In this document: positions 248 through 23,019 of the stretch, one piece after another | Layout of the letters: every line of letters starts with the position of its first letter | How positions within the stretch are numbered: position 1 is the first letter of the stretch | IMG/VR virus record: IMGVR_UViG_3300017969_000077 | Location: 1-30,501 of that record | Reading direction: 5' to 3' (one strand) | DNA: 30,501 nt | Source of the DNA: a virus | Program-made: the position numbers and the translations under genes | Notes under the pieces: model-generated | The model's input: only the letters and a program-made list of their open reading frames with translations | Told to the model about the DNA's origin: nothing | The model's database searches: none

Positions 248-264
248 TCTAAAGAGGTTATAAT
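248..264 (+). promoter_or_regulatory. 18-bp element promoter, leaderless class
   Basis: TCTAAAGAGGTTATAAT, with -10 at 259-264. The ATG of the next gene is 7 nt after the -10. Confidence 0.8.
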
Positions 265-271
265 AGCCAAC

Positions 272-394
272 ATGGAAGAGACAATCTGCGAGATGTGCGA
301 GGCACTAATCTTCGCGATCGACTACGAGGACAATCGGGCGATTTGGTCGCATCTCGACGAGTCGAACTGCGACGATCCGGTACCCGCGTTCTGA
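272..394 (+). CDS. Small acidic cysteine-pair protein
   Basis: A 40-residue acidic protein (MEETICEMCEALIF...). A CxxC pair near residues 6-9, a later His and a Cys near residue 33 could bind a metal. The start is chosen because this ATG sits 7 nt after TATAAT, matching the leaderless arrangement seen repeatedly here; an in-frame extension back to position 71 would cross the promoter and a hairpin. No family is recognised. The gene at 414 follows after 19 bp without its own element, so the two probably form one transcript. Confidence 0.75.
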   Translation: MEETICEMCEALIFAIDYEDNRAIWSHLDESNCDDPVPAF

Positions 395-413
395 AGACAG
401 TAAGGTACTGAGC

Positions 414-572
414 ATGGGACTATTCACCGGGTACCTGCTGTACCGGGCAGGCAAGAAGCGAGCTCAGCGACAGCTCGACGACTGGCTCGAGCTCAACGAG
501 ATCTGTGACAACTGTGGCCACGAGAAGATGTACCACTCGGCGTTCATGGACAGATGCCCTGAGCCTGAGTGA
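414..572 (+). CDS. Small zinc-ribbon-like protein
   Basis: A 52-residue protein with a basic N-terminal half (GKKRAQRQ) and a C-terminal CDNCGH...C arrangement (C31, C34, H36, a later His and C48) suggesting one zinc site. Its stop lies 1 bp before the next promoter element. The ribosome binding site is weak (TAAGGT). Codon choice matches the flanking genes. Many actinophages carry proteins of this size and type, but I do not recognise a named family. Confidence 0.65.
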   Translation: MGLFTGYLLYRAGKKRAQRQLDDWLELNEICDNCGHEKMYHSAFMDRCPEPE

Positions 573-573
573 A

Positions 574-591
574 TTCTAAAGAAGTTATAAT
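574..591 (+). promoter_or_regulatory. 18-bp element promoter, leadered class
   Basis: Exact consensus TTCTAAAGAAGTTATAAT. It is followed by GACATCGTCAGCCC and a GAAAGGA ribosome binding site before the ATG at 632. Confidence 0.85.
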
Positions 592-631
592 GACATCGTC
601 AGCCCAACCCACTACGAAAGGATACACAACG

Positions 632-883
632 ATGTTCACCCCAGAAGAGATCAAGGACGCTCTCCGAATCATCGCCAAGCGCGATGGACGTGCGACCCGC
701 GAGGACGCGATCGAGTACCTCTATCAGATGGAGCTGGATTATTCCGACCAGCTCGCCGACCAGCTCGCCGAGATGCGAGCCGAGTTCGGAATGAGCTGGG
801 TCTGCGGCGGCGGTAGCGCCGAGGACGTTAGCGCAGCGTGGTCAATGCATCGCGACGACTACATCGCCGGCCGGATCGGCTGA
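632..883 (+). CDS. Hypothetical acidic helical protein
   Basis: An 83-residue soluble protein (MFTPEEIKDALRIIAKRDG...). The N-terminal part suggests a small helical domain; a CGGGS turn is followed by a C-terminal helix. The ATG at 632 is preferred over an earlier in-frame ATG at 569 because it follows the GAAAGGA site, whereas the earlier codon lies inside the preceding gene. It is a single-gene transcription unit between two copies of the 18-bp element. No function is recognised. Confidence 0.75.
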   Translation: MFTPEEIKDALRIIAKRDGRATREDAIEYLYQMELDYSDQLADQLAEMRAEFGMSWVCGGGSAEDVSAAWSMHRDDYIAGRIG

Positions 884-901
884 TTCTAAAGAAGTTATAA
901 T
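884..901 (+). promoter_or_regulatory. 18-bp element promoter, leadered class
   Basis: Exact consensus overlapping the previous stop region. The leader contains GTCAGCCCAACCCACTACG and GAAAGGA before the ATG at 938. Confidence 0.85.
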
Positions 902-937
902 AGTCTACGTCAGCCCAACCCACTACGAAAGGACATC

Positions 938-1393: not shown

Positions 1394-1395
1394 GA

Positions 1396-1410
1396 GCCGG
1401 CGCCTCCGGC
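1396..1410 (+). terminator. Short GC hairpin after the CPCSPGF gene
   Basis: GCCGG CGCCT CCGGC hairpin directly after the stop codon, just before the next promoter. There is no U-run. Confidence 0.35.
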
Positions 1411-1414
1411 GGAG

Positions 1415-1432
1415 TTCTAAAGAAGTTATAAT
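1415..1432 (+). promoter_or_regulatory. 18-bp element promoter, leaderless class
   Basis: Exact consensus with -10 at 1427-1432. An ATG follows 7 nt later at 1440. Confidence 0.8.
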
Positions 1433-1439
1433 TGACCAC

Positions 1440-1610: not shown

Positions 1611-1619
1611 GGAGCGGCC

Positions 1620-2977: not shown

Positions 2978-3499
2978 ATGGGAATGGACGTTTACGGGCA
3001 CAGCCCGAAGACTGAAGAGGGCGAGTACTTCCGGGCGAACGTCTGGGGATGGCGTCCGATCTGGGACTACTGCGTGCAGATGCACCCGCACCTGGTCGGC
3101 GATGAGCCAGAGTACGGCCACTACAACGACGGCTACGGCCTCGATGAGGAGGGCGCTACGCGGCTTGGTGAGGCGATCGAGCAAGATCTTCGAGACGGGC
3201 GTGCACACGCCTACATCGAGTCTCGGAACAAGTACCTCGCGAAGCTTGAGCGCCCTGAGTGCGACTGGTGCGATAAGACGGGAATCCGCACGGACAAGGT
3301 CGGCGTGGACATGGGCATGCCCGAGAAAGCTCTCGACGCGGTGACGGCTATCATGGTTGGGCGTACGCACGGATGGTGCAACGGCTGCAACGGCGAGGGA
3401 CGTCAGGATCACCCGGAAACTCTCTACTCTCTCGAGATCGGTGACCTCGACGAGTTCGCGGTGTTTCTGATCAACAGTGGAGGCTTCGGCATCCACTGA
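2978..3499 (+). CDS. Conserved MGMDVYG-type zinc protein, paralogue of the gene at 13787
   Basis: A 173-residue protein opening MGMDVYGHSPKTEEGEYF, with NVWGWRPIWDYC near residues 21-32. Two cysteine pairs, C95/C98 and C134/C137 (CNGCNGEG), resemble DnaJ-type zinc repeats. Proteins starting 'MGMDVYG..P....G.YFR...W.WRP' occur in many phages and some bacteria without known function. The gene at 13787-14305 has the same plan, including both Cys pairs, DMGMP/DLSMP and the SGGF.I C-terminus, so this is a paralogous pair. A GAAAGGA leader fixes the start. Confidence 0.9.
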   Translation: MGMDVYGHSPKTEEGEYFRANVWGWRPIWDYCVQMHPHLVGDEPEYGHYNDGYGLDEEGATRLGEAIEQDLRDGRAHAYIESRNKYLAKLERPECDWCDKTGIRTDKVGVDMGMPEKALDAVTAIMVGRTHGWCNGCNGEGRQDHPETLYSLEIGDLDEFAVFLINSGGFGIH

Positions 3500-3507
3500 G
3501 AGAGTTC

Positions 3508-3538
3508 AGGCCTGCCTAAGGCTGCGCAGTGCAGACGG
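3508..3538 (+). repeat. GCC-TA-GGC / TGCAGACGG dispersed repeat, copy 4
   Basis: GGCCTGCCTAAGGC is followed by TGCAGACGG at 3530-3538, immediately upstream of the promoter element at 3544. Confidence 0.6.
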
Positions 3539-3543
3539 ACAGC

Positions 3544-3561
3544 TTCTAAAGAAGATACAAT
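3544..3561 (+). promoter_or_regulatory. 18-bp element promoter, leadered class
   Basis: TTCTAAAGAAGATACAAT. A leader of about 40 nt with CGAAAGGACG precedes the ATG at 3602. Confidence 0.85.
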
Positions 3562-3601
3562 AGACAAGGCAACGAAGAACCAAACTCGAAAGGACGAAAA
3601 G

Positions 3602-3796
3602 ATGAGGACGTACTTTGCAATGGACGGAAACTACGGAGACGCAGAGGAGTTTCTCGTAGTCGACACGTCGATGTGGGATGACGACGACTGGGCCGCGATC
3701 GAGTTCGCGACGAGCAGCGAGCGACTCGCGATCGCGCGACAGATCGACGATGGCGAGTACAACCCGAACCAGCTCGAGCTCCCGCTCGAATCCTGA
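3602..3796 (+). CDS. Hypothetical small acidic protein
   Basis: A 64-residue very acidic protein (MRTYFAMDGNYGDAEEF...) with a run of Asp around MWDDDDW, then SERLAIARQIDDGEY, ending NQLELPLES. No cysteines or membrane segment. The start is set by CGAAAGGACG. It is flanked by the TGCAGACGG repeat plus promoter upstream and a strong hairpin downstream, so it is an isolated transcription unit. Function unknown. Confidence 0.75.
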   Translation: MRTYFAMDGNYGDAEEFLVVDTSMWDDDDWAAIEFATSSERLAIARQIDDGEYNPNQLELPLES

Positions 3797-3802
3797 GATC
3801 TT

Positions 3803-3843
3803 GCCGGCCCAGGGGGGTTACTCCTTTCCCCCTCTGGGCCGGC
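3803..3843 (+). terminator. Strong GC hairpin, probable terminator
   Basis: GCCGGCCCA pairs exactly with TGGGCCGGC, extended inward by GGGG/CCCC around a TTACTCCTTTC loop. It is placed just after the stop at 3796 and before the next promoter. No U-run is evident. Confidence 0.6.
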
Positions 3844-3852
3844 TGCTCATCA

Positions 3853-3870
3853 TTCTAAAGATGTTATAAT
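3853..3870 (+). promoter_or_regulatory. 18-bp element promoter, leadered class
   Basis: TTCTAAAGATGTTATAAT, with T for A inside the spacer. The leader begins GATCTCGTCAGCCC and ends GAAAGGAAGCAGCCC before the ATG at 3910. Confidence 0.85.
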
Positions 3871-3909
3871 GATCTCGTCAGCCCGACCAACGACGAAAGG
3901 AAGCAGCCC

Positions 3910-4056
3910 ATGGCATACAAGCCCTCCACCCGTCTACACGAGGTCTTCAATCCGACCTTCGGATACATCTGCTTCACCGGCAGCCAGAGCGCCTGCCTGA
4001 GGTACGTGAGCCGCAAGAACAACCCGAACCTCATCGTCCAGCCGGCAGCCCGCTGA
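3910..4056 (+). CDS. Hypothetical 48-residue protein
   Basis: A small basic protein, MAYKPSTRLHEVFNPTFGYI..., with two cysteines 8 residues apart that do not form a standard zinc motif. It is supported by the promoter element and a GAAAGGA leader rather than by homology. The stop codon overlaps a GCCCGC/GCGGGC hairpin. No family is recognised. Confidence 0.7.
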   Translation: MAYKPSTRLHEVFNPTFGYICFTGSQSACLRYVSRKNNPNLIVQPAAR

Positions 4057-4064
4057 TCGCGGGC
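4048..4064 (+). terminator. Hairpin overlapping the stop codon
   Basis: GCCCGC TGATC GCGGGC; the loop contains the TGA stop of the upstream gene. A possible terminator or mRNA-stabilising hairpin. Confidence 0.4.
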
Positions 4065-4076
4065 GCCGGCCGCGAA

Positions 4077-4094
4077 TTCTAAAGAAGTTATAAT
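4077..4094 (+). promoter_or_regulatory. 18-bp element promoter, leadered class
   Basis: Exact consensus. The leader has AATCAAGCCCACTACG and GAAAGGA before the ATG at 4125. Confidence 0.85.
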
Positions 4095-4124
4095 AGAATC
4101 AAGCCCACTACGAAAGGACAGCAG

Positions 4125-4337
4125 ATGGTTTACATGTCACTCCCAGGGAGCCGCCAGATCCTCGGCTCGAATAAGTGCCGCATCCTCATCGACGCATGGC
4201 GAATGCGTTCGATCCGCAGAGCGTACCGCCGTATGCGGCTCCAAGGGATGAGCTCGATCGAAGCCCGCTACATGGTCTTCAATCTCCTGGACGCGGGCCG
4301 ATCAGGCAAGTTCGCCTCAGATTCGCTCCCCGCCTGA
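4125..4337 (+). CDS. Hypothetical strongly basic protein
   Basis: A 70-residue protein rich in Arg (WRMRSIRRAYRRMRLQG), followed by SSIEARYMVFNLLDAGRSG. The charge suggests nucleic-acid or ribosome contact, but that is only inference. The first ATG follows GAAAGGACAGCAG; a second in-frame ATG lies at codon 4. It is a single-gene unit. Confidence 0.75.
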   Translation: MVYMSLPGSRQILGSNKCRILIDAWRMRSIRRAYRRMRLQGMSSIEARYMVFNLLDAGRSGKFASDSLPA

Positions 4338-4343
4338 TCGTGA

Positions 4344-4361
4344 TTCTAAAGAAGTTATAAT
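4344..4361 (+). promoter_or_regulatory. 18-bp element promoter, leadered class
   Basis: Exact consensus. The leader has ATCAAGCCCACGACG and GAAAGGA before the ATG at 4392. Confidence 0.85.
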
Positions 4362-4391
4362 GATATCAAGCCCACGACGAAAGGACACAGA

Positions 4392-4622
4392 ATGACAGTA
4401 GTGACCAACACGCCAGACTTGCTCGAGAAGCTCAGGATGATCTCCGCGATCCAGGCTCTCCGCGTCGAGATGCATGGCATGAAGATGACCCGAGGCTTCA
4501 GCGCCCTCAAGTTCGTCAAGGAGACGTACGGAATCACCGCCGGCACCAAGGCGAAGGCCTTCGAGCAGATGCTCGAGCTCTACGAGGAGACCTACGGAGA
4601 GGAGTACGGCGGGGCGCGGTGA
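4392..4622 (+). CDS. Hypothetical small helical protein
   Basis: 76 residues, MTVVTNTPDLLEKLRMI..., mostly predicted helix, with a basic mid-part (MHGMKMTRGFSALKFVKETYG) and an acidic C-terminus (LYEETYGEEYGG). No cysteine pairs and no membrane segment. A GAAAGGACACAGA leader sets the start. Its size and helicity would fit a small host-takeover protein, but there is no direct evidence. Confidence 0.75.
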   Translation: MTVVTNTPDLLEKLRMISAIQALRVEMHGMKMTRGFSALKFVKETYGITAGTKAKAFEQMLELYEETYGEEYGGAR

Positions 4623-4637
4623 GCGCCCCCACTCTTC

Positions 4638-4655
4638 TTCTAAAGAAGTTATAAT
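4638..4655 (+). promoter_or_regulatory. 18-bp element promoter, leaderless class (GTG)
   Basis: Exact consensus with AGTCTACGTG after the -10; elsewhere (10127) the equivalent sequence is AGTCTACATG. Confidence 0.8.
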
Positions 4656-4662
4656 AGTCTAC

Positions 4663-4896
4663 GTGGAAAGGAATAACGACGAGATGGACGCGATGGAAAA
4701 GATCGAGGTGCTCGACAGATTCGAGACGTTTCAAGAGGGGCTGATGGACAGACTTCAAGATCGGCTCATGGCGAATGACGTGAGCGAAGTCGCCGACATG
4801 GAGAGGCTCCTCGAGCGGCTCGCGGAAGAGATCGAGAAGCGGCGAAGCGAGATCGAGCAGGAGATCGACATCGCGGTCTCTGACTTCTTCGACTGA
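4663..4896 (+). CDS. Acidic coiled-coil protein
   Basis: 77 residues from a GTG placed 7 nt after the -10 (MERNNDEMDAMEKIEVL...). An alternative ATG at 4684 follows GAAAGGA with long spacing. Nearly the whole sequence is charged helix with heptad-like leucines (MERLLERLAEEIEKRRSEIEQEI), so a coiled coil is likely. No family is recognised. Confidence 0.75.
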   Translation: MERNNDEMDAMEKIEVLDRFETFQEGLMDRLQDRLMANDVSEVADMERLLERLAEEIEKRRSEIEQEIDIAVSDFFD

Positions 4897-4898
4897 GC

Positions 4899-4916
4899 TT
4901 CTAAAGAAGTTATAAT
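4899..4916 (+). promoter_or_regulatory. 18-bp element promoter, leaderless or short leader
   Basis: Exact consensus. An ATG follows 6 nt after the -10 at 4923, and a second ATG at 4941 is preceded by GAAAGGA. Confidence 0.8.
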
Positions 4917-4922
4917 AAAACC

Positions 4923-5240
4923 ATGAAAGGACACACGGACATGAAGTCAGTATTCGACACGGTCAAGGTCGCGGACGCGAGCTTTCACCGAAACGGAGTC
5001 GCCGGCGAGGGATTCACCGTACGGCTCATCGACGACACGTATGACGGCGAGCCCGTGCGGCTGGTCGCCATCACGTTCGATAGCGACCCGATGCGGACGG
5101 CGGTCTTGGACGTCGATCTTCTCGCGGATGGCGTCATCGCGTTCGGCGAGAACTCGTGGCGCGGAGATCACTACGCTCTTGCTCTCGGTCTGACGAAGTC
5201 AGGCGAGCGCGCGTCGATGGCGTTTGGCTCGAGAGAGTGA
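4923..5240 (+). CDS. Conserved phage protein of the FHRNGV...NSWRGDHY type
   Basis: 105 residues from ATG 4923 (leaderless) or 99 from ATG 4941 (behind GAAAGGA); both fit the patterns of this phage. It contains SFHRNGVAGEGFTV, then AITFDSDP, AVLDVDLLADGVIAFGENSWRGDHY. From memory, 'FHRNG..GEGF...LDVD...G...FG.NSWRGD' recurs in small actinophage proteins with no assigned function. It is probably a compact beta-rich domain. Confidence 0.85.
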   Translation: MKGHTDMKSVFDTVKVADASFHRNGVAGEGFTVRLIDDTYDGEPVRLVAITFDSDPMRTAVLDVDLLADGVIAFGENSWRGDHYALALGLTKSGERASMAFGSRE

Positions 5241-5241
5241 C

Positions 5242-5259
5242 GCCGGCGAGCGCACCGGC
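5242..5259 (+). terminator. Short GC hairpin
   Basis: GCCGG and CCGGC pair around an 8-nt loop just after the stop at 5240. It is followed by the TGCAGACGG repeat. Confidence 0.35.
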
Positions 5260-5286
5260 CCGCCTATAGGCGAGCTATGCAGACGG
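5257..5286 (+). repeat. GCC-TA-GGC / TGCAGACGG dispersed repeat, copy 5
   Basis: GGCCCGCCTATAGGC contains the perfect palindrome GCCTATAGGC and is followed by TGCAGACGG at 5278-5286, upstream of the promoter at 5295. Confidence 0.6.
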
Positions 5287-5294
5287 ACTGTCTT

Positions 5295-5312
5295 TACTAA
5301 AGAAAGTATAAT
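5295..5312 (+). promoter_or_regulatory. 18-bp element promoter, leaderless class
   Basis: TACTAAAGAAAGTATAAT with -10 at 5307-5312. The ATG follows 6 nt later. Confidence 0.8.
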
Positions 5313-5318
5313 AGACTC

Positions 5319-5588
5319 ATGAACGAGAACAAGTCACTGATCGCTTGGGACGCAATCCCCGACCTCGCAGTCGAGCTGGAGAAGCTCCCGACTGGCGCAT
5401 GGGCGCTTCGCTGGTCCGATGGCGTCGCGAACGAGTGGGAGGAGGAGTTCGAGTTGCTGAGCGTCGCGTTCATTCGACTCGCGAGTCTTTCCCGATGCTC
5501 CGAGTCGGATTGGGACAGAGGTTTCTCGCTCGACGCAGAATCTCACTCGATCGTCGCTGACGAGATTCTAGAGTCACTCGTCGAGTAA
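5319..5588 (+). CDS. Hypothetical acidic protein
   Basis: An 89-residue acidic protein (MNENKSLIAWDAIPDLAVELEK...) with five tryptophans and a single cysteine. No upstream ribosome binding site exists; the ATG lies 6 nt after TATAAT, so the mRNA is probably leaderless. Family unknown. A TGCAGACGG repeat lies upstream of its promoter. Confidence 0.75.
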   Translation: MNENKSLIAWDAIPDLAVELEKLPTGAWALRWSDGVANEWEEEFELLSVAFIRLASLSRCSESDWDRGFSLDAESHSIVADEILESLVE

Positions 5589-5612
5589 TGTCTCTGCCCA
5601 CTCTCCCTAGAG

Positions 5613-5630
5613 TTCTAAAGAAGTTATAAT
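5613..5630 (+). promoter_or_regulatory. 18-bp element promoter, leadered class
   Basis: Exact consensus. The leader contains a CCAGCC AGGGT GGCTGG hairpin and GAAAGGA before the ATG at 5677. Confidence 0.85.
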
Positions 5631-5676
5631 GGATCTTACCAGCCAGGGTGGCTGGGGAACGACGAAAGGACATGGA

Positions 5677-5922
5677 ATGACCAAGTGGTGTCTCCTCAAG
5701 GAGTCCGATGGTGCGCGCGGCGTGGCCGGCAAGCGCAAGATCTACGAGATCACCATCACCGACGATCACGAGGTGATCTTCGAGTGGGGTCGCGCTGAGA
5801 AGAAGGAGCGGCAGGGCACGAAGGTGCAGCGGTTCTTCTCGGACCAGGCGGCCCGCCGAGCGGCCGCTGAGCAGCTCTTCGCCAAGCAGGCCAAGGGCTA
5901 CGTCCTGGCCTACACGGTCTGA
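5677..5922 (+). CDS. Stand-alone WGR-domain protein
   Basis: An 81-residue protein that is almost entirely a WGR domain. It shows KIYEITITDD, then VIFEWGRAEKKERQG (WGR at residues 37-39), then VQRFFSDQAARRAAAEQLFAKQAKGY. WGR domains are known in PARP proteins, where they help bind DNA ends, and in short bacterial proteins and MolR-like regulators. Here no partner domain is attached, so it is probably a small nucleic-acid-binding factor; this is inference. ATG 5677 is chosen behind GAAAGGA; a nearer ATG at 5672 is out of frame. Confidence 0.85.
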   Translation: MTKWCLLKESDGARGVAGKRKIYEITITDDHEVIFEWGRAEKKERQGTKVQRFFSDQAARRAAAEQLFAKQAKGYVLAYTV

Positions 5923-5989: not shown

Positions 5990-6007
5990 TTCTAAAGAAG
6001 TTATAAT
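5990..6007 (+). promoter_or_regulatory. 18-bp element promoter, leaderless class
   Basis: Exact consensus. GATCTC separates the -10 from ATG 6014. Confidence 0.85.
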
Positions 6008-6288: not shown

Positions 6289-6306
6289 TTCTAAAGAAGT
6301 TATAAT
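6289..6306 (+). promoter_or_regulatory. 18-bp element promoter, leaderless class
   Basis: Exact consensus. AGTCCAC separates the -10 from ATG 6314. Confidence 0.8.
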
Positions 6307-6610: not shown

Positions 6611-6628
6611 AACTAAAGAAGTTATAAT
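6611..6628 (+). promoter_or_regulatory. 18-bp element promoter, leadered class
   Basis: AACTAAAGAAGTTATAAT. The leader has GCCGGCCAGCCGGGCC and CACGAAAGGTC before the ATG at 6676. Confidence 0.8.
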
Positions 6629-6965: not shown

Positions 6966-6983
6966 TTCTAAAGAAGTTATAAT
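6966..6983 (+). promoter_or_regulatory. 18-bp element promoter, leadered class
   Basis: Exact consensus. The leader has ATCAGCCAACACG and GAAGGACACAG before the ATG at 7014. Confidence 0.85.
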
Positions 6984-7013: not shown

Positions 7014-7175
7014 ATGAGCATCAACTGGAGCGAGATCGGCAAGGCGCCTGAGGGCGAGTGCGAGTACTGCGACAACATGCGCGCCGAAGGAACCAGCTTC
7101 CATCCCAACCACAACGCTTCGCAGAGGTGCGAGTCTGGCGGCCGAAACCACTGCACGTGCGATCGGTGCTTCTGA
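7014..7175 (+). CDS. Small cysteine-rich protein with HCTCDRCF ending
   Basis: A 53-residue protein with CEYC (residues 16-19), then RCESGGRNHCTCDRCF at the C-terminus. The eight Cys/His positions can hold one or two zinc ions. The ending 'C.SG...HCTCD.CF' is one I recall from small actinophage proteins of unknown function. The start follows GAAGGACACAG. The stop sits at the edge of the next promoter element. Confidence 0.8.
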   Translation: MSINWSEIGKAPEGECEYCDNMRAEGTSFHPNHNASQRCESGGRNHCTCDRCF

Positions 7176-7192
7176 TCTAAAGAAAGTATAAT
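7175..7192 (+). promoter_or_regulatory. 18-bp element promoter, leadered class
   Basis: ATCTAAAGAAAGTATAAT overlapping the previous stop. The leader has GATCTCATCAGCC and GGAAGGACAAAG before the ATG at 7223. Confidence 0.85.
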
Positions 7193-7966: not shown

Positions 7967-7984
7967 TTCTAAAGAAGTTATAAT
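7967..7984 (+). promoter_or_regulatory. 18-bp element promoter, leadered class
   Basis: Exact consensus. The leader contains ACCAGC AAGCCC GCTGGT, a small hairpin, and GAAAGGA before the ATG at 8028. Confidence 0.85.
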
Positions 7985-8617: not shown

Positions 8618-8635
8618 ATCTAAAGAAGTTACAAT
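8618..8635 (+). promoter_or_regulatory. 18-bp element promoter, leaderless class
   Basis: ATCTAAAGAAGTTACAAT. ATACGT separates the -10 from ATG 8642. Confidence 0.8.
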
Positions 8636-8886: not shown

Positions 8887-8904
8887 TTCTAAAGAAGTTA
8901 TAAT
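8887..8904 (+). promoter_or_regulatory. 18-bp element promoter driving the structured RNA
   Basis: Exact consensus followed by GATCTCATA. The position that is ATG in leaderless copies is ATA here. Transcription would start near 8911. Confidence 0.85.
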
Positions 8905-9751: not shown

Positions 9752-9769
9752 TTCTAAAGAAGTTATAAT
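9752..9769 (+). promoter_or_regulatory. 18-bp element promoter, leaderless class
   Basis: Exact consensus. AGTACGC separates the -10 from ATG 9777. Confidence 0.8.
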
Positions 9770-10101: not shown

Positions 10102-10119
10102 AACTAAAGAAGTTATAAT
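10102..10119 (+). promoter_or_regulatory. 18-bp element promoter, leaderless class
   Basis: AACTAAAGAAGTTATAAT just after the tRNA. AGTCTAC separates the -10 from ATG 10127. Confidence 0.8.
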
Positions 10120-10126: not shown

Positions 10127-10327
10127 ATGGAAGGACGCAAGATCACAACAGTCACCGCTTACATCACCAAACCCGGTGAGCAAAAGCCGTACGTCTTCAC
10201 CGTGGAGATCGCGGCCCCTGGCGACACAATCAAGAGACGCTTCAAGAAGATGAACGACGCGATCTCGTGGCTCCAACACTGGGCGACTGCCCGCGGCGTC
10301 AAGATCGACCTCAGGCAGGCGAAGTAA
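10127..10327 (+). CDS. Small basic protein
   Basis: 66 residues, MEGRKITTVTAYITKPGEQK..., with beta-strand-like repeats followed by a basic helix (KRRFKKMNDAISWLQHWATARG). The layout suggests a compact alpha/beta fold. It is leaderless, with no ribosome binding site between the -10 and ATG. The stop overlaps the next promoter element. Function unknown. Confidence 0.75.
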   Translation: MEGRKITTVTAYITKPGEQKPYVFTVEIAAPGDTIKRRFKKMNDAISWLQHWATARGVKIDLRQAK

Positions 10328-10344
10328 TCTAAAGAAGTTATAAT
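10327..10344 (+). promoter_or_regulatory. 18-bp element promoter, leadered class
   Basis: ATCTAAAGAAGTTATAAT. A short leader with AGGAGGA precedes the ATG at 10370. Confidence 0.8.
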
Positions 10345-10778: not shown

Positions 10779-10796
10779 ATCTAAAGAAAGTATAAT
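10779..10796 (+). promoter_or_regulatory. 18-bp element promoter, leaderless class
   Basis: ATCTAAAGAAAGTATAAT. GATCTC separates the -10 from ATG 10803. Confidence 0.8.
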
Positions 10797-10802: not shown

Positions 10803-11078
10803 ATGAACGACGCTAAGACATTCACTTCTCTGAAGAATCTCGTTCTGACGAGGGGGTCGCGCGTCGTCGCAGGGTCGATCTACCGAGCCGACAACAAGAT
10901 CGACGCCGGAAAGCGATTCCTAGACGCGCTGCCGACCTGGCGAAAGAGCACAGGCGACGCGGCGACAATGCGGGAGCTCGAGAGGCGTCTTCGAGAGTCG
11001 ATCGAGGCTCACGAGAACACGTTGATTGCTCTCGAGCTTTTTGAACTTCGTAGACTCAACTTGGAGGACGCCGGCTGA
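10803..11078 (+). CDS. Hypothetical helical protein
   Basis: 91 residues, MNDAKTFTSLKNLVLTRGSR..., basic at the N-terminus. The C-terminal half is helical with regular leucines (MRELERRLRESIEAHENTLIALELFELRRL) and could form a coiled coil. It is leaderless. It overlaps the next gene in a TGATG arrangement. Function unknown. Confidence 0.75.
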   Translation: MNDAKTFTSLKNLVLTRGSRVVAGSIYRADNKIDAGKRFLDALPTWRKSTGDAATMRELERRLRESIEAHENTLIALELFELRRLNLEDAG

Positions 11079-11353
11079 TGCCAAGAAAAATCACGCTAGT
11101 CAGCGCAGATGGAGACTCGCGGATCGTTCTCTACTCGGTGTTCGGGCGGTTGCTTCTTCTCGTCGTCAAGTCTCCACGCGGAACGCGTCGCATTCTCGGT
11201 TTCCGCACGGAAGAGGCACTCCTCGAGAAGATCAACGTCTGTCTCAAGGACGCGGCAGAACGAGAGTCTCGAGTGCTGCTGCCAAAAGCGAAAGAGTGGC
11301 CGTGGCCGGCGCCAACAGAGAGCGATCTTCCGTATCGTTGGTTGGAAGACTAA
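11078..11353 (+). CDS. Hypothetical protein
   Basis: 91 residues, MPRKITLVSADGDSRIVLYS..., with an N-terminal beta-rich part (LVSADG...IVLYSVFGRLLLLVV) and a proline- and tryptophan-rich C-terminus (WPWPAPTESDLPYRW). One hydrophobic stretch, GRLLLLVV, is too short for a membrane span. It is translationally coupled to the previous gene, and its stop TAA is part of the next promoter element. Confidence 0.75.
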   Translation: MPRKITLVSADGDSRIVLYSVFGRLLLLVVKSPRGTRRILGFRTEEALLEKINVCLKDAAERESRVLLPKAKEWPWPAPTESDLPYRWLED

Positions 11354-11365
11354 AGATGATAAAAT
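11348..11365 (+). promoter_or_regulatory. 18-bp element promoter, divergent copy, leadered
   Basis: GACTAAAGATGATAAAAT overlapping the previous stop. A leader of about 33 nt with CGGAGACACAG precedes the ATG at 11399. Confidence 0.7.
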
Positions 11366-11398: not shown

Positions 11399-11626
11399 AT
11401 GGCAAGAGACCTGACGTTCATGGTCGCCAACTCAATGGAGGCGTACTGCGAGAAAGTCATGGAGATCGGCGTCGAGAAAGTAGCGAAGCACGCCGGCTTG
11501 AAAGAAAGAGTCGTTAGAAAGTTCATCAACGACACATACGCGTCCAAGAACGCAGACGTTCGCAAGATTCAAGAAGCGGTCAAGGCGATCTTGGCCGAGA
11601 GCGAAGACACGGAGAAGAAAGAATGA
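11399..11626 (+). CDS. Small helix-turn-helix protein (XRE/lambda-repressor-like)
   Basis: 75 residues. Residues about 24-60 (VEKVAKHAGLKERVVRKFIND.. then VRKIQEAVKAIL) read as the helix-turn-helix core of a lambda-repressor-like domain: a VAK.AGL first helix, a short turn, a recognition helix, and a following helix that closes the fold. It probably binds DNA as a small regulator. The start follows GGAGACACAG. It overlaps the next gene by 4 bp (ATGA). Confidence 0.7.
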   Translation: MARDLTFMVANSMEAYCEKVMEIGVEKVAKHAGLKERVVRKFINDTYASKNADVRKIQEAVKAILAESEDTEKKE

Positions 11627-12225
11627 CCCCCACCGAAGAGATCAAAGCAGACATCATCGCAGAGTTCGAGCGCTCGAGAAGCGTTGCGGCAGTCATCGAC
11701 ACGTTTCGCGGTCGAGTCGGCCCAGCAGTAGTGCGCGACGTTCTTGAGCCGAGAAAGCACCTCTCGCTTTCGCGGTTCCCTCGGCGCGATGCCGCTACTG
11801 AAGACGACTTGCTTCTCGCGTTGTCGAAGGCAAACGTCGCCGGCGCACAGTCAGTTGCGGCGTACCAAGCGTATCGCGCGGAGCATCCCGAGCTTTCCAT
11901 GCCGTCAGCGCAAACAATCATCCTCCGCTTCGGCTCATGGTCTGCCGCGCGCGATGCCGCCAGGTTGCCGACGCGCCGACGCGCCATTCGGTCGACGTCA
12001 AAGAGCTTTTCAGACGATCAAATCTCAGACGCTGTCCGAGCTTTCGTAGAGTTTGCTCGCGAAGAGAAGATCAAGCCGACGCAGCAAGCGTACGATCGCT
12101 TTGCTCGTGACAGCGAGAACAAACTCCCGCTCCTCTCAACAGTTCGCGCACGTTTCTCCAAGTCATACGCGACTTGGACTCAGATCATAAGGGCTCACGA
12201 TTCAACGATTGAACGCACTCACTAA
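11623..12225 (+). CDS. Putative DNA-binding protein with homing-endonuclease-associated repeats
   Basis: 200 residues. At least two stretches look like homing-endonuclease-associated (HNH) repeats: about 62-112, ending PSAQTIILRFGSWSAARDAARL, and about 131-190, ending LSTVRARFSKSYATWTQIIRAH. In known families, such repeats are helix-turn-helix DNA-binding units attached to HNH or other nucleases. No HNH or other nuclease motif is visible, so this may be a nuclease-free regulator or a remnant. The N-terminus (VIDTFRGRVGPAVVRDVLEPR) may be a further HTH-like unit. ATGA overlap with the upstream HTH gene. Confidence 0.7.
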   Translation: MTPTEEIKADIIAEFERSRSVAAVIDTFRGRVGPAVVRDVLEPRKHLSLSRFPRRDAATEDDLLLALSKANVAGAQSVAAYQAYRAEHPELSMPSAQTIILRFGSWSAARDAARLPTRRRAIRSTSKSFSDDQISDAVRAFVEFAREEKIKPTQQAYDRFARDSENKLPLLSTVRARFSKSYATWTQIIRAHDSTIERTH

Positions 12226-12850: not shown

Positions 12851-13016
12851 GCAAGCCGAAAGTGACTTTGAAACCGAAGTGCTCGAGATGCTCGAGACAA
12901 TCGACAGTTCTATCTCGCAGACTCACGAAAAAACAATGGTGCCAGCGTCCATCGTGTGCGACATGCTTCTTGACATCAGATCTGCGGCAATGCGATTCAT
13001 CGAGAGATTGAACTAA
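12837..13016 (+). CDS. Hypothetical acidic helical protein
   Basis: 59 residues, MQTLEQAESDFETEVLEMLE..., helical and acidic, ending RSAAMRFIERLN. GGAGAACGAAA precedes the ATG, which lies inside the end of the upstream gene. The TAA stop is embedded in the next promoter element (AACTAAAGAAG). Confidence 0.7.
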   Translation: MQTLEQAESDFETEVLEMLETIDSSISQTHEKTMVPASIVCDMLLDIRSAAMRFIERLN

Positions 13017-13028
13017 AGAAGATATATT
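13011..13028 (+). promoter_or_regulatory. 18-bp element promoter, divergent copy, leaderless
   Basis: AACTAAAGAAGATATATT overlapping the stop of the upstream gene. GACAAT separates the -10 from ATG 13035. Confidence 0.7.
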
Positions 13029-13786: not shown

Positions 13787-14305
13787 ATGACGATGCACAT
13801 TTACGGATGTGAACCCGACTCGCCGGCTGGCGAGAAGTTCTACAGAAACGTCTGGGCGTGGCACTCTCTTTGGACGTACTGCGAAGATCGTCACGAGGAC
13901 TTGGCGCATCGCGTTCATCGTCCGTACGCCTCGGATGGCGATGGGCTTGACGAAAACGAGGCAACAGATCTCGGTTGGCGACTGTTCTTCGATCTTGTTC
14001 ACGGAATCGCTGAAGAATACGTCGACTCGAGAAACGCGATCGTGTACGCGCTACCAAACAACGAATGTCACATTTGCGGCGGCTCTGGTGTTCGCTCAGA
14101 CCAGGTCGGAGAAGATCTGTCGATGCCGTGGCGCGCTCTTGACGTCGATCAGGCAATCAAACTCGGCAGAGCCCGCGGCTGGTGTAACTACTGCCGCGGA
14201 GAGGGTAGAGTTCTCGAGTTCGAACGCAGCCACCGGCTAAGCACTGTCGACATCGCGGAGTTCGCAGACTTCTTAGTTCATTCCGGCGGGTTTGAAATCT
14301 ACTAA
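13787..14305 (+). CDS. MGMDVYG-type zinc protein, second copy
   Basis: 172 residues, MTMHIYGCEPDSPAGEKFY..., paralogous to the protein at 2978. It keeps NVWAWHSLWTYC, both cysteine pairs C94/C97 and C133/C136 (CNYCRGEG), DLSMPWRALD and the SGGFEIY end. It differs from the first copy in lacking the 18-bp promoter and having a strong hairpin in front. GAAGGA is directly adjacent to the ATG. Zinc binding is likely; function unknown. Confidence 0.85.
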   Translation: MTMHIYGCEPDSPAGEKFYRNVWAWHSLWTYCEDRHEDLAHRVHRPYASDGDGLDENEATDLGWRLFFDLVHGIAEEYVDSRNAIVYALPNNECHICGGSGVRSDQVGEDLSMPWRALDVDQAIKLGRARGWCNYCRGEGRVLEFERSHRLSTVDIAEFADFLVHSGGFEIY

Positions 14306-14321
14306 CTAAAGAAGATACAAT
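14304..14321 (+). promoter_or_regulatory. 18-bp element promoter, leaderless class
   Basis: AACTAAAGAAGATACAAT overlapping the previous stop. GTAGGC separates the -10 from ATG 14328. Confidence 0.8.
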
Positions 14322-14327: not shown

Positions 14328-14528
14328 ATGGGCAAGTACAGCGAAGTTATTGACAACATCGTTGAGAGAACCGGATGGCCGCGGTCGTTCGCAAGCGAAT
14401 ACGCCGTGGCGCGGCTGTATCATCACGAAAGCCATCTCCGGGCGATGAAATCCGCGATGAAGTCGTCGTACGTCACCTCCGCGGAAAAAGAGCAGGTCAA
14501 GCGGCTCAGCGCAGAAGAACGTGCTTGA
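14328..14528 (+). CDS. Hypothetical basic helical protein
   Basis: 66 residues, MGKYSEVIDNIVERTGWPRS..., helical and basic in the second half (HLRAMKSAMKSSYVTSAEKEQVKRL). It is leaderless. The stop touches the next promoter element. No recognised domain. Confidence 0.7.
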   Translation: MGKYSEVIDNIVERTGWPRSFASEYAVARLYHHESHLRAMKSAMKSSYVTSAEKEQVKRLSAEERA

Positions 14529-14545
14529 TCTAAAGAAAGTAAGAT
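14528..14545 (+). promoter_or_regulatory. 18-bp element promoter, divergent copy, leaderless
   Basis: ATCTAAAGAAAGTAAGAT with a weak -10 (TAAGAT). GACCTC separates it from ATG 14552. Confidence 0.7.
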
Positions 14546-14898: not shown

Positions 14899-14916
14899 TT
14901 CTAAAGACATTATAAT
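14899..14916 (+). promoter_or_regulatory. 18-bp element promoter, divergent copy, leaderless
   Basis: TTCTAAAGACATTATAAT. ATCTTC separates the -10 from ATG 14923. The sigma-like gene probably also depends on this promoter. Confidence 0.75.
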
Positions 14917-15927: not shown

Positions 15928-16518
15928 GTGACGACAATTCTCGCGGTTCAAGGCGACACCTGGTCAGTTGTTGGCTGCGATTCGCTCGTGTCCGACGACA
16001 ACGGCAGAGCATACAGCCTCGCGCCTGGTGTCTCGAAGATGACCGAAAAGTCAGGCTATGTCATGGCGACTGCCGGCGATCTTCGTGCGATCAACATCGT
16101 TTGTCACGCTTTTGATCCGCCAAAGCCGCCGAAAGTCTTTGGCGCAGACTTGGATTCGTTTTTCACGTCGAAGTTCATACCTGCCCTCCGCGAGTGCTTT
16201 GAGTCCCACGGATACGCGACAAAGAGCGACAAAGAGCAAGCAGCTCACGGGTCGTCGCTCATCATCTCAGTTCGCGGCGTGATCTACGCGGTAGACGAAG
16301 ACTACGCTTGGACTCGAGACAGATATGGGTTCTATAGCGCCGGCAGCGGCGGAGACTATGCGATCGGCGCGATGAACGCTCTATGCGACTACAATCCGAA
16401 CTTTCTCTCAGACGTGCTCGCGGTAGAGTATGTTCAGAGAGCTATTGAAATAGCAACAAAACTTGACACAGGTTCAAGGCTACCATCACAGGTAATCTCT
16501 CAGACCATAGCACCCTAG
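15928..16518 (+). CDS. Proteasome-like (Ntn-hydrolase) beta-subunit family protein
   Basis: 196 residues from GTG: MTTILAVQGDTWSVVGCDS. Removal of Met would expose an N-terminal Thr, the nucleophile of 20S/HslV-type proteases. D18 in CDS and K37 in GVSKM sit where the catalytic Asp17 and Lys33 fall in that family. SAGSGGDYAIGAM (about residues 138-150) matches the family's GSGG.YA..A turn. Actinophages often carry such proteins; their substrates are not known, and a role in virion or host protein processing is inference. A longer start at TTG 15907 is possible but lacks the family's N-terminus. Confidence 0.8.
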   Translation: MTTILAVQGDTWSVVGCDSLVSDDNGRAYSLAPGVSKMTEKSGYVMATAGDLRAINIVCHAFDPPKPPKVFGADLDSFFTSKFIPALRECFESHGYATKSDKEQAAHGSSLIISVRGVIYAVDEDYAWTRDRYGFYSAGSGGDYAIGAMNALCDYNPNFLSDVLAVEYVQRAIEIATKLDTGSRLPSQVISQTIAP

Positions 16519-16526: not shown

Positions 16527-16793
16527 GTGACGCCGTCATGGATGAAAAACGCACCCTGCTCGGGAAAATCAGAGCTATTTTTCAACGAAACGTCGAAAAA
16601 GACAGTAGAAAGAGCCAGAAAGATCTGCCAGTCGTGTAGTGCAAGAGAAAAGTGCTACGAGCACGCGATGAAACACACGGACCTTGGCGTCTGGGCCGGA
16701 CTTACAACGAACCAGCGCGAAAAAATCAAGCGGCAGATCAGAAAAACCCTGAGAAATGACAGAAAGTCAACTCAGAAGCAAGAGTCTATGTAA
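16527..16793 (+). CDS. whiB-like: WhiB-family iron-sulfur transcription factor
   Basis: 88 residues. Four cysteines C11, C34, C37 and C43 (CSGKSELFF...KICQSCSAREKC) match the [4Fe-4S] cluster ligands of WhiB proteins. GVWAG (54-58) corresponds to the family turn GVWGG. A basic C-terminal tail (REKIKRQIRKTLRNDRK) would bind DNA. WhiB proteins are restricted to actinobacteria and their phages and act with the primary sigma factor. In phage TM4, a WhiB protein represses host whiB2. The GTG start follows AGGAGACACA. Confidence 0.9.
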   Translation: MTPSWMKNAPCSGKSELFFNETSKKTVERARKICQSCSAREKCYEHAMKHTDLGVWAGLTTNQREKIKRQIRKTLRNDRKSTQKQESM

Positions 16794-17964: not shown

Positions 17965-18183
17965 ATGGCCGAAATCTACAAAATTGTCGCGTTCGACTCC
18001 GACGGAAGGCGTCTCGAGTCGTACGCGATGCCCGGCATGCACCGAATGTTCTCGAGGAGCATGATGGAGGAATACGGCAACGTTGAGGTGACGCCGATGG
18101 CGTTTTCTGATCTGCCGAGTGACATCCTCGAGCAAGTGAAGAAGTCGAATGTCGCGCTCGATGACGAGACGCCGGCTGAATAA
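17965..18183 (+). CDS. Hypothetical acidic protein
   Basis: 72 residues, MAEIYKIVAFDSDGRRLESY..., with an N-terminal beta strand, a Met-rich centre (MPGMHRMFSRSMMEEYG) and an acidic C-terminus. AAGGAGACAGAA precedes the ATG. The stop is part of the next promoter element. No family is recognised. Confidence 0.75.
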   Translation: MAEIYKIVAFDSDGRRLESYAMPGMHRMFSRSMMEEYGNVEVTPMAFSDLPSDILEQVKKSNVALDDETPAE

Positions 18184-18199
18184 CTAAAGACTGTATAGT
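18182..18199 (+). promoter_or_regulatory. 18-bp element promoter, divergent copy, leadered
   Basis: AACTAAAGACTGTATAGT overlapping the previous stop. A leader of about 50 nt with ACCAGCCCACTAC and GGAGGATAGGT precedes the ATG at 18254. Confidence 0.7.
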
Positions 18200-20469: not shown

Positions 20470-20487
20470 AACTAAAGATGTTACTAT
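20470..20487 (+). promoter_or_regulatory. 18-bp element promoter, divergent copy, leaderless
   Basis: AACTAAAGATGTTACTAT. GGTCTAC separates the -10 from ATG 20495. It is the last rightward copy in the window. Confidence 0.75.
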
Positions 20488-20623: not shown

Positions 20624-20629
20624 CTTGCC

Positions 20630-22051
20630 ATGGGCAAGAGCATGATGGAGCGGCTCGCCCTGCTCCCAGACGAAGAACGCGCCGCGCTGCTCGACGGAGT
20701 AGACATGGACGCGCTCGTTTGGGACTGGCGAGCCTGGGCGAGGCCCGAACAGCTACCGCCTGACGGAACCGATTGGTCAATTTGGATGTACCTCGCGGGC
20801 AGAGGCGCCGGCAAGACGCGATCAGCCGCCGAGTGGGTCCGTGAGAAGGCGAAGGACACTTCGCAGGGTCAAATACGTTTCGCGCTCGTCGCACGTACTG
20901 CGGCTGACGTGCGTGACGTCATCGTCGAGGGCGAGTCTGGGATCATCAGCGTCTCGCCGCCGAGCGAGCGCCCACTGTACGAGCCGTCGAAGCGACGACT
21001 GACGTGGCCGAACGGAAACACCGCGACGTGCTTCACCGCGGACGAACCAGACGGCCTTCGTGGTCCGCAGTTCCACTACGCCTGGGCAGACGAGATCGCG
21101 GCATGGCGGCAGTCGCCGGACGCGGCTGGAATGACATCGTGGGACAACCTTCGCGTCGCCACTCGTCTTGGGAAGGCGCCACAGATCATCTGCACGACCA
21201 CGCCGAAACGCGTGCCGGTTCTGTACTCGCTGCTTGCGGAATCCGAGAAGGGTTACAACGTTCGCATCTCGAGAGGATCGACGCTTGACAACGCCGGCAA
21301 CCTTTCGTCGACGTATCTCGACGCGATCACCGGTGTCTACGCTGGAACGCGGCTTGCTGCGCAGGAGCTCTACGGCGAGATGCTCTCCGACGTCGAAGGC
21401 GCGCTCTGGACAGATGAACTCATCGAACGATCGAGAGAAACCGGGTTCCCGCACTCGGCGCCACTCAGAGTAGTTGGTGTCGACCCGTCAGTCGCCGAGA
21501 ACCCAAGAGACGAGTGCGGGATTGTCGTCTGCGCGTCGACAGGCGAGCGAGATCTGTACAAACGCAACGCGTGGGTTCTCGAGGACGCAAGTATCCACGG
21601 CTCACCTGAGCAATGGGCGAACAAGGTCGTCGAGATGGCGCGAAAGTACTCGTGCCCTGTCGTGGCAGAAGTCAACCAGGGCGGCGCCCTTGTCACGAAC
21701 GCCATCCTCGCAATCGACCCGTCGATCAAGGTTCTCGAGGTACACTCGAAACATGGCAAGGCGCTTCGCGCCGAACCAGTTACGCTCGCGTACGAACAGA
21801 ACCGAGTCCACCACATCAACTACCTTCCGGAGCTCGAGTCGCAGATGATCGCGTGGATTCCCGGCGAGGGGAAGTCGCCAGACAGAATCGACGCGCTCGT
21901 ACACGCGCTCACCGCGCTGCTCATCAAACCGCCGAAAGGTTTTGTCGGAGGCACGATCACTGCCAAGTCTGTCGCGTCAAGAAGACTGCCAGCGTTCCGT
22001 GGAGGGCAGTCGTCAACGGGCAGAGGTGGTAGAGTATTTACAGTACGGTAA
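20630..22051 (+). CDS. terL: Terminase, large subunit
   Basis: 473 residues, the usual length. It is the ATP-driven packaging motor and nuclease that cuts and pumps DNA into the prohead. Walker A is GRGAGKT (57-63), Walker B ends in DE at 154-155 (YAWADEIAAW), and the coupling motif is CTTTPK (188-193). The C-terminal RNase-H-like nuclease shows GVDPS (D285), VAEVNQGG (E347) and SPDRIDAL (D418/D421). This fits the Terminase_6-type family. No clear small-subunit gene is adjacent; the helix-turn-helix gene at 23806 is a candidate. The start lies 6 nt after a TACAAT box. Confidence 0.97.
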   Translation: MGKSMMERLALLPDEERAALLDGVDMDALVWDWRAWARPEQLPPDGTDWSIWMYLAGRGAGKTRSAAEWVREKAKDTSQGQIRFALVARTAADVRDVIVEGESGIISVSPPSERPLYEPSKRRLTWPNGNTATCFTADEPDGLRGPQFHYAWADEIAAWRQSPDAAGMTSWDNLRVATRLGKAPQIICTTTPKRVPVLYSLLAESEKGYNVRISRGSTLDNAGNLSSTYLDAITGVYAGTRLAAQELYGEMLSDVEGALWTDELIERSRETGFPHSAPLRVVGVDPSVAENPRDECGIVVCASTGERDLYKRNAWVLEDASIHGSPEQWANKVVEMARKYSCPVVAEVNQGGALVTNAILAIDPSIKVLEVHSKHGKALRAEPVTLAYEQNRVHHINYLPELESQMIAWIPGEGKSPDRIDALVHALTALLIKPPKGFVGGTITAKSVASRRLPAFRGGQSSTGRGGRVFTVR

Positions 22052-22081
22052 TTGATACCAAACCGAACAAGGAAGTGTAAC

Positions 22082-22639
22082 ATGAGCACAGAGTTCAACC
22101 CAGACGCCAAAGACGGCGACGGCGACGGAGTAGTCCAGGAAGGGACAGAGTTCGAGCGCCCAATCGGCGATGGCTACAACCCAGACGCCACAGATGGCGA
22201 TGGCGATGGCAAGGTGCAGGACGGCACCAAGTTCGAGCGCCCGGTAGGAGAGACTGCTGTTGTCGCTGCCGCGGAAGAGCCAGAGCCGAAGCCAGAGCCG
22301 AAGCCAAAGTCAAAGCCGGCTTCAAAGAAACGACGCGACCCATCGCCGGGTGGCGCAGCAGTCAGTGGCAACGAAACTGACAACGTGTCACTTGCGGCTT
22401 GCGTCTTCAAGAACAAGGCCGCGAAGAAGTCGCTGTCAATTCACCACGTCCAGCGTCGCCTGACCGAGCTCGGCTACCCCGACGCGTACACTGACAAGGA
22501 CGGTTGGTATGGAGACCTCACCCTTGCGGCTGTCGCTCAGTACCAATCCGACGAGGGTCTTGACGGCGAAGGGGTCATCACGATGGAGACACTTGAGTCT
22601 CTGTTTGCGGATGACTGCAACGTGACCGTCGTCAACTGA
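22082..22639 (+). CDS. Calcium-loop and peptidoglycan-binding-domain protein
   Basis: 185 residues. Two repeats at about 6-28 and 32-54 contain DAKDGDGDGVVQ and DATDGDGDGKVQ, EF-hand/dockerin-like Ca-binding loops, each followed by GT.FERP. A Pro/Glu/Lys linker (PEPKPEPKPKSKP) and a basic stretch follow. Residues about 118-178 (HHVQRRLTELGYPDAYTD..WYGDLTLAAVAQYQ) are a PG_binding_1-type domain that grips cell wall. No catalytic domain is present. It could be a virion wall-contact protein or lysis accessory. ATG 22082 follows AAGGAAG. Confidence 0.85.
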   Translation: MSTEFNPDAKDGDGDGVVQEGTEFERPIGDGYNPDATDGDGDGKVQDGTKFERPVGETAVVAAAEEPEPKPEPKPKSKPASKKRRDPSPGGAAVSGNETDNVSLAACVFKNKAAKKSLSIHHVQRRLTELGYPDAYTDKDGWYGDLTLAAVAQYQSDEGLDGEGVITMETLESLFADDCNVTVVN

Positions 22640-22666
22640 TCGCCGCATTTCACCACACGCGGAAGA

Positions 22667-22692
22667 GGCCGGGGCATTCACCCCGGCCTTTT
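22667..22692. terminator. Intrinsic terminator between convergent genes
   Basis: GGCCGGGG CATTCA CCCCGGCC followed by TTTT. It lies between the rightward gene ending at 22639 and the leftward gene ending at 22716. On the other strand the hairpin is followed by a weaker CTCTTCC, so it may work in both directions. Confidence 0.85.
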
Positions 22693-22715
22693 CCGTGCGG
22701 CTTGCTCCTTTGCGG

Positions 22716-22946
22716 TCAGATCTCGTCGTAGTTGTCAGTCAGCGTCTCGTAGATGCCGACGCATGCGGTAGTCATGACGCCGATGAAGAAGAGGAAGACT
22801 GAGACCGCGATGACGGTTTCCCATGCGGTCATGCCGCTCATGTCGTACGTCTTGTTGACGTCAGCAATGAATGCGGCAATCATTCCAAACCCGAAGAGGG
22901 CGACGATCGCGGTGGCGATGAGTGCGGGAAGCTTCTTCATATTCAT
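22716..22946 (-). CDS. Small two-span membrane protein, only leftward gene
   Basis: 76 residues from ATG 22946: MNMKKLPALIATAIVALFGF, then a loop with KTYDMSGMTAWE and a second span TVIAVSVFLFFIGVMTTACV. Its plan and size resemble the rightward gene at 9777. ACGAAAGGAAAACCAA precedes the ATG, the same leader style as the accessory genes, and a reverse copy of the 18-bp element lies at 23002-23019. A longer in-frame version starting at 23003 is rejected because it would begin at the promoter. Confidence 0.8.
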   Translation of the reverse strand: MNMKKLPALIATAIVALFGFGMIAAFIADVNKTYDMSGMTAWETVIAVSVFLFFIGVMTTACVGIYETLTDNYDEI

Positions 22947-23001
22947 TTGGTTTTCCTTTCGTCGTTGCACCTTTGCGGGTGCGGCTGGCTTGTTATAGAC
23001 C

Positions 23002-23019
23002 ATAGTATCATCTTTAGAT
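23002..23019 (-). promoter_or_regulatory. 18-bp element promoter on the minus strand, leadered class
   Basis: Reads ATCTAAAGATGATACTAT on the minus strand, followed by a leader of about 50 nt with ACGAAAGGA before ATG 22946. Confidence 0.8.

Follow-up and report, generated by a model that had tools for sequence, protein, structure and literature searches.

A repeated element in the small-gene module

The window analyzed here is a stretch of 30,501 nt (56% GC) from IMG/VR virus record IMGVR_UViG_3300017969_000077, of a group taken to be actinobacterial viruses, and it is included, with 99.94% identity, at positions 11071–41568 of a 52,738-nt record (G004). Most of its small genes are preceded by an 18-bp element with the consensus TTCTAAAGAAGTTATAAT and the promoter-like layout TTCTAAAG-N4-TATAAT, present as 35 rightward copies and one leftward copy. 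A preliminary description of the same DNA had given this count and the coordinates exactly. A position weight matrix of the 18-mer (score of at least 14 out of 34) retrieved 35 forward copies and 1 reverse copy, compared with 0 per strand in dinucleotide shuffles, and the scores were sharply bimodal, with almost nothing else in the window above 8/34. The pattern CTAAAGANNNTANNAT gave 33 + 1 matches, and its reversed control gave 0. Exact CTAAAGA is found 36 times on the plus strand and once on the minus strand; one plus-strand copy, at 29411, lies within a giant open reading frame (ORF) and has no hexamer.

A start codon follows each of the 36 copies at 6–74 nt, as expected from the claim that the element always lies just upstream of a gene. 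The layout, said to be dense, then sparse, then absent, was also recovered: 26 of the 33 predicted genes in the 0.2–10.9 kb interval have their own element, as do 7 of 24 between 10.9 and 20.5 kb, and the same motif scan found none in the structural-gene region of the window. The element is intergenic and strand-biased. The description had further proposed a mosaic of one-gene transcription units, which is not supported. Of 34 elements, 21 overlap the preceding stop codon or are no more than 20 nt away from it, and the window has no excess of terminator-like sites (12 found, 10.0 ± 3.3 expected), so that overlapping, read-through transcripts are more likely than independent units.

Three diverged lineages have the element, in each case only in the small-gene module. 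Besides that of the window (lineage A), these are lineage B (records G001, G002 and G003, with 54–65 copies per record), which shares ~77% DNA identity over a few genes only, and the complete phage DSL-LC01 (OQ999401, 129 kb), with a terminase that is 84% identical. DSL-LC01 has 33 copies of the variant TTCTAAAG[AT]TGTTATA[AG]T, all between 22.6 and 43.3 kb, in the homologous module. The paper describing DSL-LC01 predicts an actinomycete host, and promoters and repeats go unmentioned in it (PMC10611076). The element is absent from cultured Microbacterium and Gordonia relatives. A megablast search of INPHARED phages with the window gave no match, and an exact 16-mer scan of IMG/VR returned, besides relatives, mostly single chance hits. 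Scanning genome contigs for the element together with a Shine–Dalgarno (SD) sequence gave one chance-like match, in a Bacillus genome, and no link to a host or prophage. An Rfam search returned nothing, and PHROGs and Pfam assigned no function to most of the small genes tested.

Anatomy of the promoter-like element and predicted transcription starts

In aligned copies from the three lineages, the conserved block runs from two bases before CTAAAG through the end of TATAAT. Upstream of it, where a -35 element would lie, there is no information content, nor is an UP element conserved, which bears out the reported lack of a -35 box. The spacing between CTAAAG and the hexamer is 4 nt in 169 of 171 copies (six phages), and one of the two exceptions, with 5 nt, precedes the winged-helix gene of the window's phage that is discussed below. 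The fixed gap of 4 bp noted earlier is thus correct when counted from CTAAAG, but is only 3 nt after CTAAAGA, and the seventh position of the supposedly invariant CTAAAGA varies across lineages, being A in 21 of 30 copies in DSL-LC01. Likewise, the near-inverted repeat CTTCTAAAGAAG is real in the window lineage but is not a conserved feature, because relatives carry CTAAAGTTG, AAACTAAAGTT or CTAAAGATG; a reading as an inverted repeat or dimer site was rejected, as the right arm is not kept in them. Position -14 is G in most copies, and DSL-LC01 adds T at -15, giving a perfect TGn motif (a textbook extended -10). TG at -15/-14 is also present in loci L176 and L177, while lineages A and B mostly have AG.

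The distance from hexamer to start codon is bimodal in the window: 6–7 nt in 16 of 36 cases, and at least 25 nt, with an SD sequence that is usually GAAAGGA, in the other 20. No start codon falls 8–24 nt after the hexamer in the window or in DSL-LC01. Nearly all starts of the independently annotated DSL-LC01 genes are 27–56 nt away, and lineage B shows both modes plus a few in-between cases. In lineage B, 52 of 59 copies have A as the seventh nucleotide after the hexamer, and 58 of 59 have C or T just before that position. A primary sigma factor would use a TATAAT-like -10 with transcription starting 6–9 nt on, and here the hexamer is near-invariant with start codons at 6–7 nt; the -35 half, a TTGACA at a distance of 16–18 bp, is missing, with 0 TTGAC-17-TAnnnT sites in the module of the window lineage. 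The promoter reading of the element is strongly supported by start distances, strand bias, intergenic sites and conservation across diverged lineages. Judged by this geometry, transcription would begin about 7 nt after TATAAT, and the simplest reading is that some genes have leaderless mRNAs, which fits 16 of the 36, and the rest leadered ones.

Individual copies were assigned from the matrix and from the distance of the start codon after the hexamer. On the plus strand, predicted leaderless starts at ATG +7 follow the elements at 247–264, 1415–1432, 6289–6306, 9752–9769 and 10102–10119, the last directly 3' of a tRNA-Trp gene, and a GTG at +7 follows the copy at 4638–4655. The element at 20470–20487 is placed likewise (ATG +7) before a 40-aa ORF that precedes the terminase gene. 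Leaderless ATG starts at +6 are predicted for 4899–4916, 5295–5312 (an AAAG variant), 5990–6007, 8618–8635, 10779–10796, 13011–13028, 14304–14321 and 14528–14545, and probably for 14899–14916, where the ORF has 32 codons for amino acids.

Leaders with an SD sequence follow the plus-strand copies at 10327–10344 (ATG +25), 4077–4094, 4344–4361, 6966–6983 and 7175–7192 (all +30), 2649–2666 (+32), 2257–2274, 2927–2944 and 11348–11365 (+33), 884–901 (+36), 3853–3870 (+39), 574–591, 1800–1817 and 3544–3561 (+40), 7967–7984 (+43), 5613–5630 (+46) and 6611–6628 (+47). A long SD leader follows 8887–8904, with the start at about +74, and the copy at 18182–18199, also with an SD leader, has the hexamer TATAGT. 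The sole leftward copy, at 23002–23019 on the minus strand, heads the SD leader of a leftward gene for 76 aa.

The conservation of all 18 bp as one block and the sharply bimodal scores would suit a highly diverged phage sigma factor or RNA polymerase that reads the entire element, and these viruses do encode giant proteins, of 3289 to more than 4721 aa, without an assigned role. Yet the hexamer is a canonical bacterial TATAAT with canonical start spacing, relatives employ ordinary TTGACA/TAnnnT promoters, and the lack of any Sigma70_r2 match in lineages A and B and DSL-LC01 counts against a phage sigma factor. A scan for RNA polymerase catalytic motifs gave nothing convincing, RNA polymerase family models not having been searched. 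We regard this explanation as very improbable indeed. A promoter for a T3-like phage RNA polymerase, which CTAAAG resembles, was rejected because conservation runs through TATAAT with canonical start distances.

The larger giant ORF (more than 4721 aa) begins at 27508, runs through the window end at 30501 and on to position 52737 of G004, and follows the portal and a DUF5824 gene. It has RNase_T exonuclease, UvrD helicase and NUDIX domains, and its homologue in DSL-LC01 (52800–62669) has 3289 aa.

Lineage-specific boxes and a candidate reader

Relatives were sampled twice, at ~90 loci in all: by a scan via a neighboring AAA ATPase gene (~35 relatives), and by an exhaustive scan via a DUF5763 neighbor of the winged-helix gene (65 loci), the two samples overlapping in ~10 contigs. 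First-sample relatives are of three kinds, with arrays of CTAAAG-N4-TATAAT, of CCTGA-TATAAT or of TTGACA-17-TAnnnT. Forward TTGAC-17-TAnnnT sites number 0–2 in the -35-less loci (L192 excepted) and 4–19 in most TTGACA-type loci. In the second scan other boxes came to light in this position, namely CTnnGG (L255 and L262) and CTGAG (L269). The copies of a phage change in concert, most of them having the box of that phage, be it CTAAAG, CTnnGG, CTGAG or CCTGA; unless some trans-acting reader exists, this is difficult to account for.

An unmodified host sigma-A RNA polymerase could nevertheless suffice, the elements being extended -10 promoters in which the box is an optimized spacer contact (to sigma region 3 or the beta-prime zipper). 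The consensus -10, the rigid spacing of the box from it, and the TGn motif of DSL-LC01, L176, L177 and the CCTGA-type phages are all as this view would have it. Moreover, no convincing intergenic TTGAC promoter was found in the 129-kb DSL-LC01 genome, which outside the module has TGn-TATAAT sites with no box. One of these, CCTGTTATAAT, lies a short way ahead of the gene at 84381 and precedes nucleotide-metabolism and replication genes. Host RNA polymerase therefore plausibly starts from TGn alone in this phage, where the box would mark a regulon and not be essential for recognition, and so this explanation and the operator model considered below stay alive. On the other hand, the CTAAAG core is conserved far beyond what sigma contacts usually need, lineages A and B keep the box while TG decays to AG, and the box changes in concert by lineage. 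The host enzyme alone would also make the co-occurrence of one protein family with these promoters, described next, a coincidence. On balance we consider it unlikely, if a serious contender.

The candidate reader is a winged-helix protein with a C-terminal coiled coil, of ~173–240 aa (388 aa in L174). Its gene in the window's phage lies left of the window (5286–5909 of G004) and is preceded by a variant element, CTAAAG-N5-TATAAT, as it is by variant elements in most phages. An AlphaFold model has a pLDDT of 76 overall and ~90 in the winged helix, and Pfam hints are to HTH_12 and HARE-HTH. Among 97 ORF families from ~10 kb on either side of the AAA gene, this was the only one to split the promoter classes perfectly (11 of 11 -35-less loci, 0 of 14 TTGAC loci). 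The second-ranked family (9/0) was discarded as a minus-strand ORF that is apparently antisense to a conserved gene, and the family with the inverse pattern (1/12) has no assigned function. The second sample, which contributed ~13–15 new carriers and 12 new non-carriers, gave 23 of 23 against 0 of 13 (Fisher 4e-10, a value inflated by the common descent noted below). L192, which combines TGn-TATAAT with TTGAC, lacks the protein. Of the earlier suggestion of an activator, a repressor or a special sigma factor as ligand, the regulator part thus has a candidate that tracks the -35-less architecture, whereas no sigma factor was found. The protein evolves fast, being 27–38% identical between relatives where neighboring proteins are 66–72% identical; its tree sets the CCTGA-type proteins apart with 98/98 support (default labels of L260 and L271 in the tree output are wrong). 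A tblastn search (E 0.01) found no homologue of the DSL-LC01 protein in other INPHARED phages.

In the explanation we favor, each element would be a promoter for host RNA polymerase with its primary (sigma-A-type) sigma factor. Transcription would start ~7 nt past TATAAT, the -10 hexamer, and the mRNA would begin with the A of the start codon itself or with a ~20–50-nt leader that carries a GAAAGGA-type ribosome-binding site. The box of 8–10 bp (TTCTAAAG, about -24 to -17), rigidly spaced from the hexamer, would replace the -35 element and would most likely be read by the winged-helix plus coiled-coil protein of the same genome, which would recruit or reshape RNA polymerase across the whole small-gene module, much as MotA acts on the middle promoters of T4; box and reader would diverge jointly within each phage lineage. 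The elements, their spacing, the start-codon distances, the missing -35, the boxes particular to each lineage and the co-occurrence were all established by computation. What we infer is that host RNA polymerase is the enzyme at work, where exactly transcription starts, and that the winged-helix protein binds the box and acts positively; we give host RNA polymerase promoters with this protein as the probable reader a probability of about 0.5.

Several points weigh against it. Thresholds for the promoter classes were chosen only once the first sample was known, and the family screen covered only the neighborhood of the AAA gene. Fold matches of the candidate are generic (best E 3e-3, to PadR/LmrR and Fur). 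In the DUF5763 tree, carriers and non-carriers fall largely into separate clades, which leaves few independent contrasts and makes the counts non-independent. The two groups are more mixed in the AAA tree, which may be a trace of gene exchange. Host range could be a hidden variable, if one host group favors -35-less promoters. Co-occurrence would fit an activator or a repressor alike, and since the candidate's own gene carries an element of the same class, a pure activator would need some basal start. Finally, the elements of DSL-LC01 and of the CCTGA-type phages qualify as good TGn extended -10 promoters as they stand, and host RNA polymerase might use them without help.

The operator model makes the box the target of the winged-helix protein, or of another phage repressor, that silences the module late or in dormancy. 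The box does overlap the RNA polymerase footprint, autoregulation through an own element is common for repressors, and the authors' software called DSL-LC01 lysogenic (PMC10611076). It leaves unexplained, however, why the -35 is missing throughout carriers and present throughout non-carrier relatives, and there is a single asymmetric box per promoter, palindromic in some lineages only. We think repression by this route decidedly doubtful.

Alternatively, the correlation of protein and -35 loss might reflect co-inheritance or a host effect, as the clade structure of carriers and non-carriers would allow, with another gene encoding the real reader, e.g., a WhiB-family protein. A WhiB gene lies at 16527–16793 on the plus strand of the window (Pfam PF02467, E 2.4e-15), and WhiB genes are present in lineage B and DSL-LC01 as well, that is, in all three CTAAAG lineages examined. 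However, GodonK and GMA2 also have WhiB and lack the element, and WhiB-type regulators, which bind sigma region 4, are generally expected to act near -35, not at -24 to -17. This proposal seems to us improbable to a high degree. The WhiB protein of the window is a possible sigma-binding co-factor. Its gene directly follows that of a small proteasome/HslV-like protein (15928–16518; weak Pfam Proteasome match, E 0.005) with a DSL-LC01 homologue annotated as HslV, a pair conserved in lineage B and DSL-LC01.

Returning to the winged-helix protein as reader, a broader and tentative proposal is that many actinobacterial phages, forming a large group with few cultured members, may have rewritten the promoter code of an entire multi-gene module: TTGACA and -35-less promoters would have been exchanged, a fast-evolving winged-helix protein would read the box, and protein and dozens of boxes would have co-diverged (CTAAAG, CTnnGG, CTGAG, CCTGA). 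If true, nature would here offer a series of phage activators and promoters in orthogonal pairs, binding at a position where MotA does not, and a possible source of such pairs for actinobacteria. An anonymous repeat is thereby turned into a concrete hypothesis on a reader protein, a transcription start and the concerted change of 30–60 sites; with about four box types and matching proteins among the relatives, promoter–factor co-evolution becomes directly testable. A further suggestion is that, in this group of environmental phages, many of the small genes have leaderless starts.

Other repeats were seen in these genomes. One is strand-biased, consisting of GGCC[TC]G followed ~15–18 nt on by GCAGACGG, with sites at 73, 182, 233, 3531 and 5279 of the window and at 3038–5792 of G004. 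Forward and reverse copies number 14/1 in G004, 11/3 in lineage B and 9/0 in L269, partly within coding sequence, including the winged-helix gene; as a pattern it is absent from L255, L176 and DSL-LC01. Hairpin-like AACGGCnnGCC repeats have many intergenic copies in the TTGACA-type relatives L189, L191 and L201. Long AT-rich intergenic repeats in L193 and L204 (AGTTTTCATTTTTTCTAATAGAA; AACTATTTTTCATTTTTAC), often followed by TTGACA-like sequence, are possibly terminator plus promoter cassettes. The GGGTAAAAATG repeats of relatives were set aside as promoter look-alikes that are probably ribosome-binding sites plus ATG. A 200-aa protein encoded at 11623–12225 of the window and conserved in lineage B has an HNH_repeat-like DNA-binding repeat (PF18780, E 2e-4) and is possibly another regulator.

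Comparison with known promoter and repeat systems

Stoperators of cluster A mycobacteriophages are asymmetric repressor sites that lie within operons and are unlinked to start sites, whereas all elements described here directly precede starts and contain a -10. The SAS/ESAS repeats of cluster K mycobacteriophages are similar in being short, asymmetric, in one orientation, among non-structural genes and before start codons (PMC3203893). However, SAS (GGGATAGGAGCCC) lies 3–7 bp before the ATG, includes the SD core and was proposed to act in translation, while the present element has a different consensus, a -10 hexamer and a separate SD sequence. The 17-bp repeats of cluster O mycobacteriophages (Corndog) also reach more than 30 short copies per actinophage genome, but they are palindromic, many are in coding regions and most are not linked to promoters (PMC4351075), in all of which the element differs. 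With both types of repeat the likeness is in distribution only.

Individual promoters for nearly every small gene were called unusual in phages, which overstates the case: in phage T4 close to 60 middle promoters have been mapped, and an early class exists besides (PMC2988021), and TTGACA-type relatives of the window have comparable arrays. The T4 early promoters are likewise a large, strong and uniform set serving few genes each, although they have UP, -35, TGn and -10 elements (PMC2988021), and here neither -35 nor UP is conserved. About half of the T4 middle promoters have TGn (PMC2988021). The MotA box of these promoters is centered at -30, ~13 bp upstream of the -10, while the box here occupies about -24 to -17, leaving 4 bp to the -10 (169 of 171 copies), and is not centered near -30. 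Nor does the candidate reader match any named family, and the box varies between phage lineages. Since position, spacing and proteins differ, the element is not classed as a member of the T4 middle system (MotA/AsiA), which, with its many dispersed sites, host -10 and phage box in place of the -35 (PMC2988021), is its closest functional parallel.

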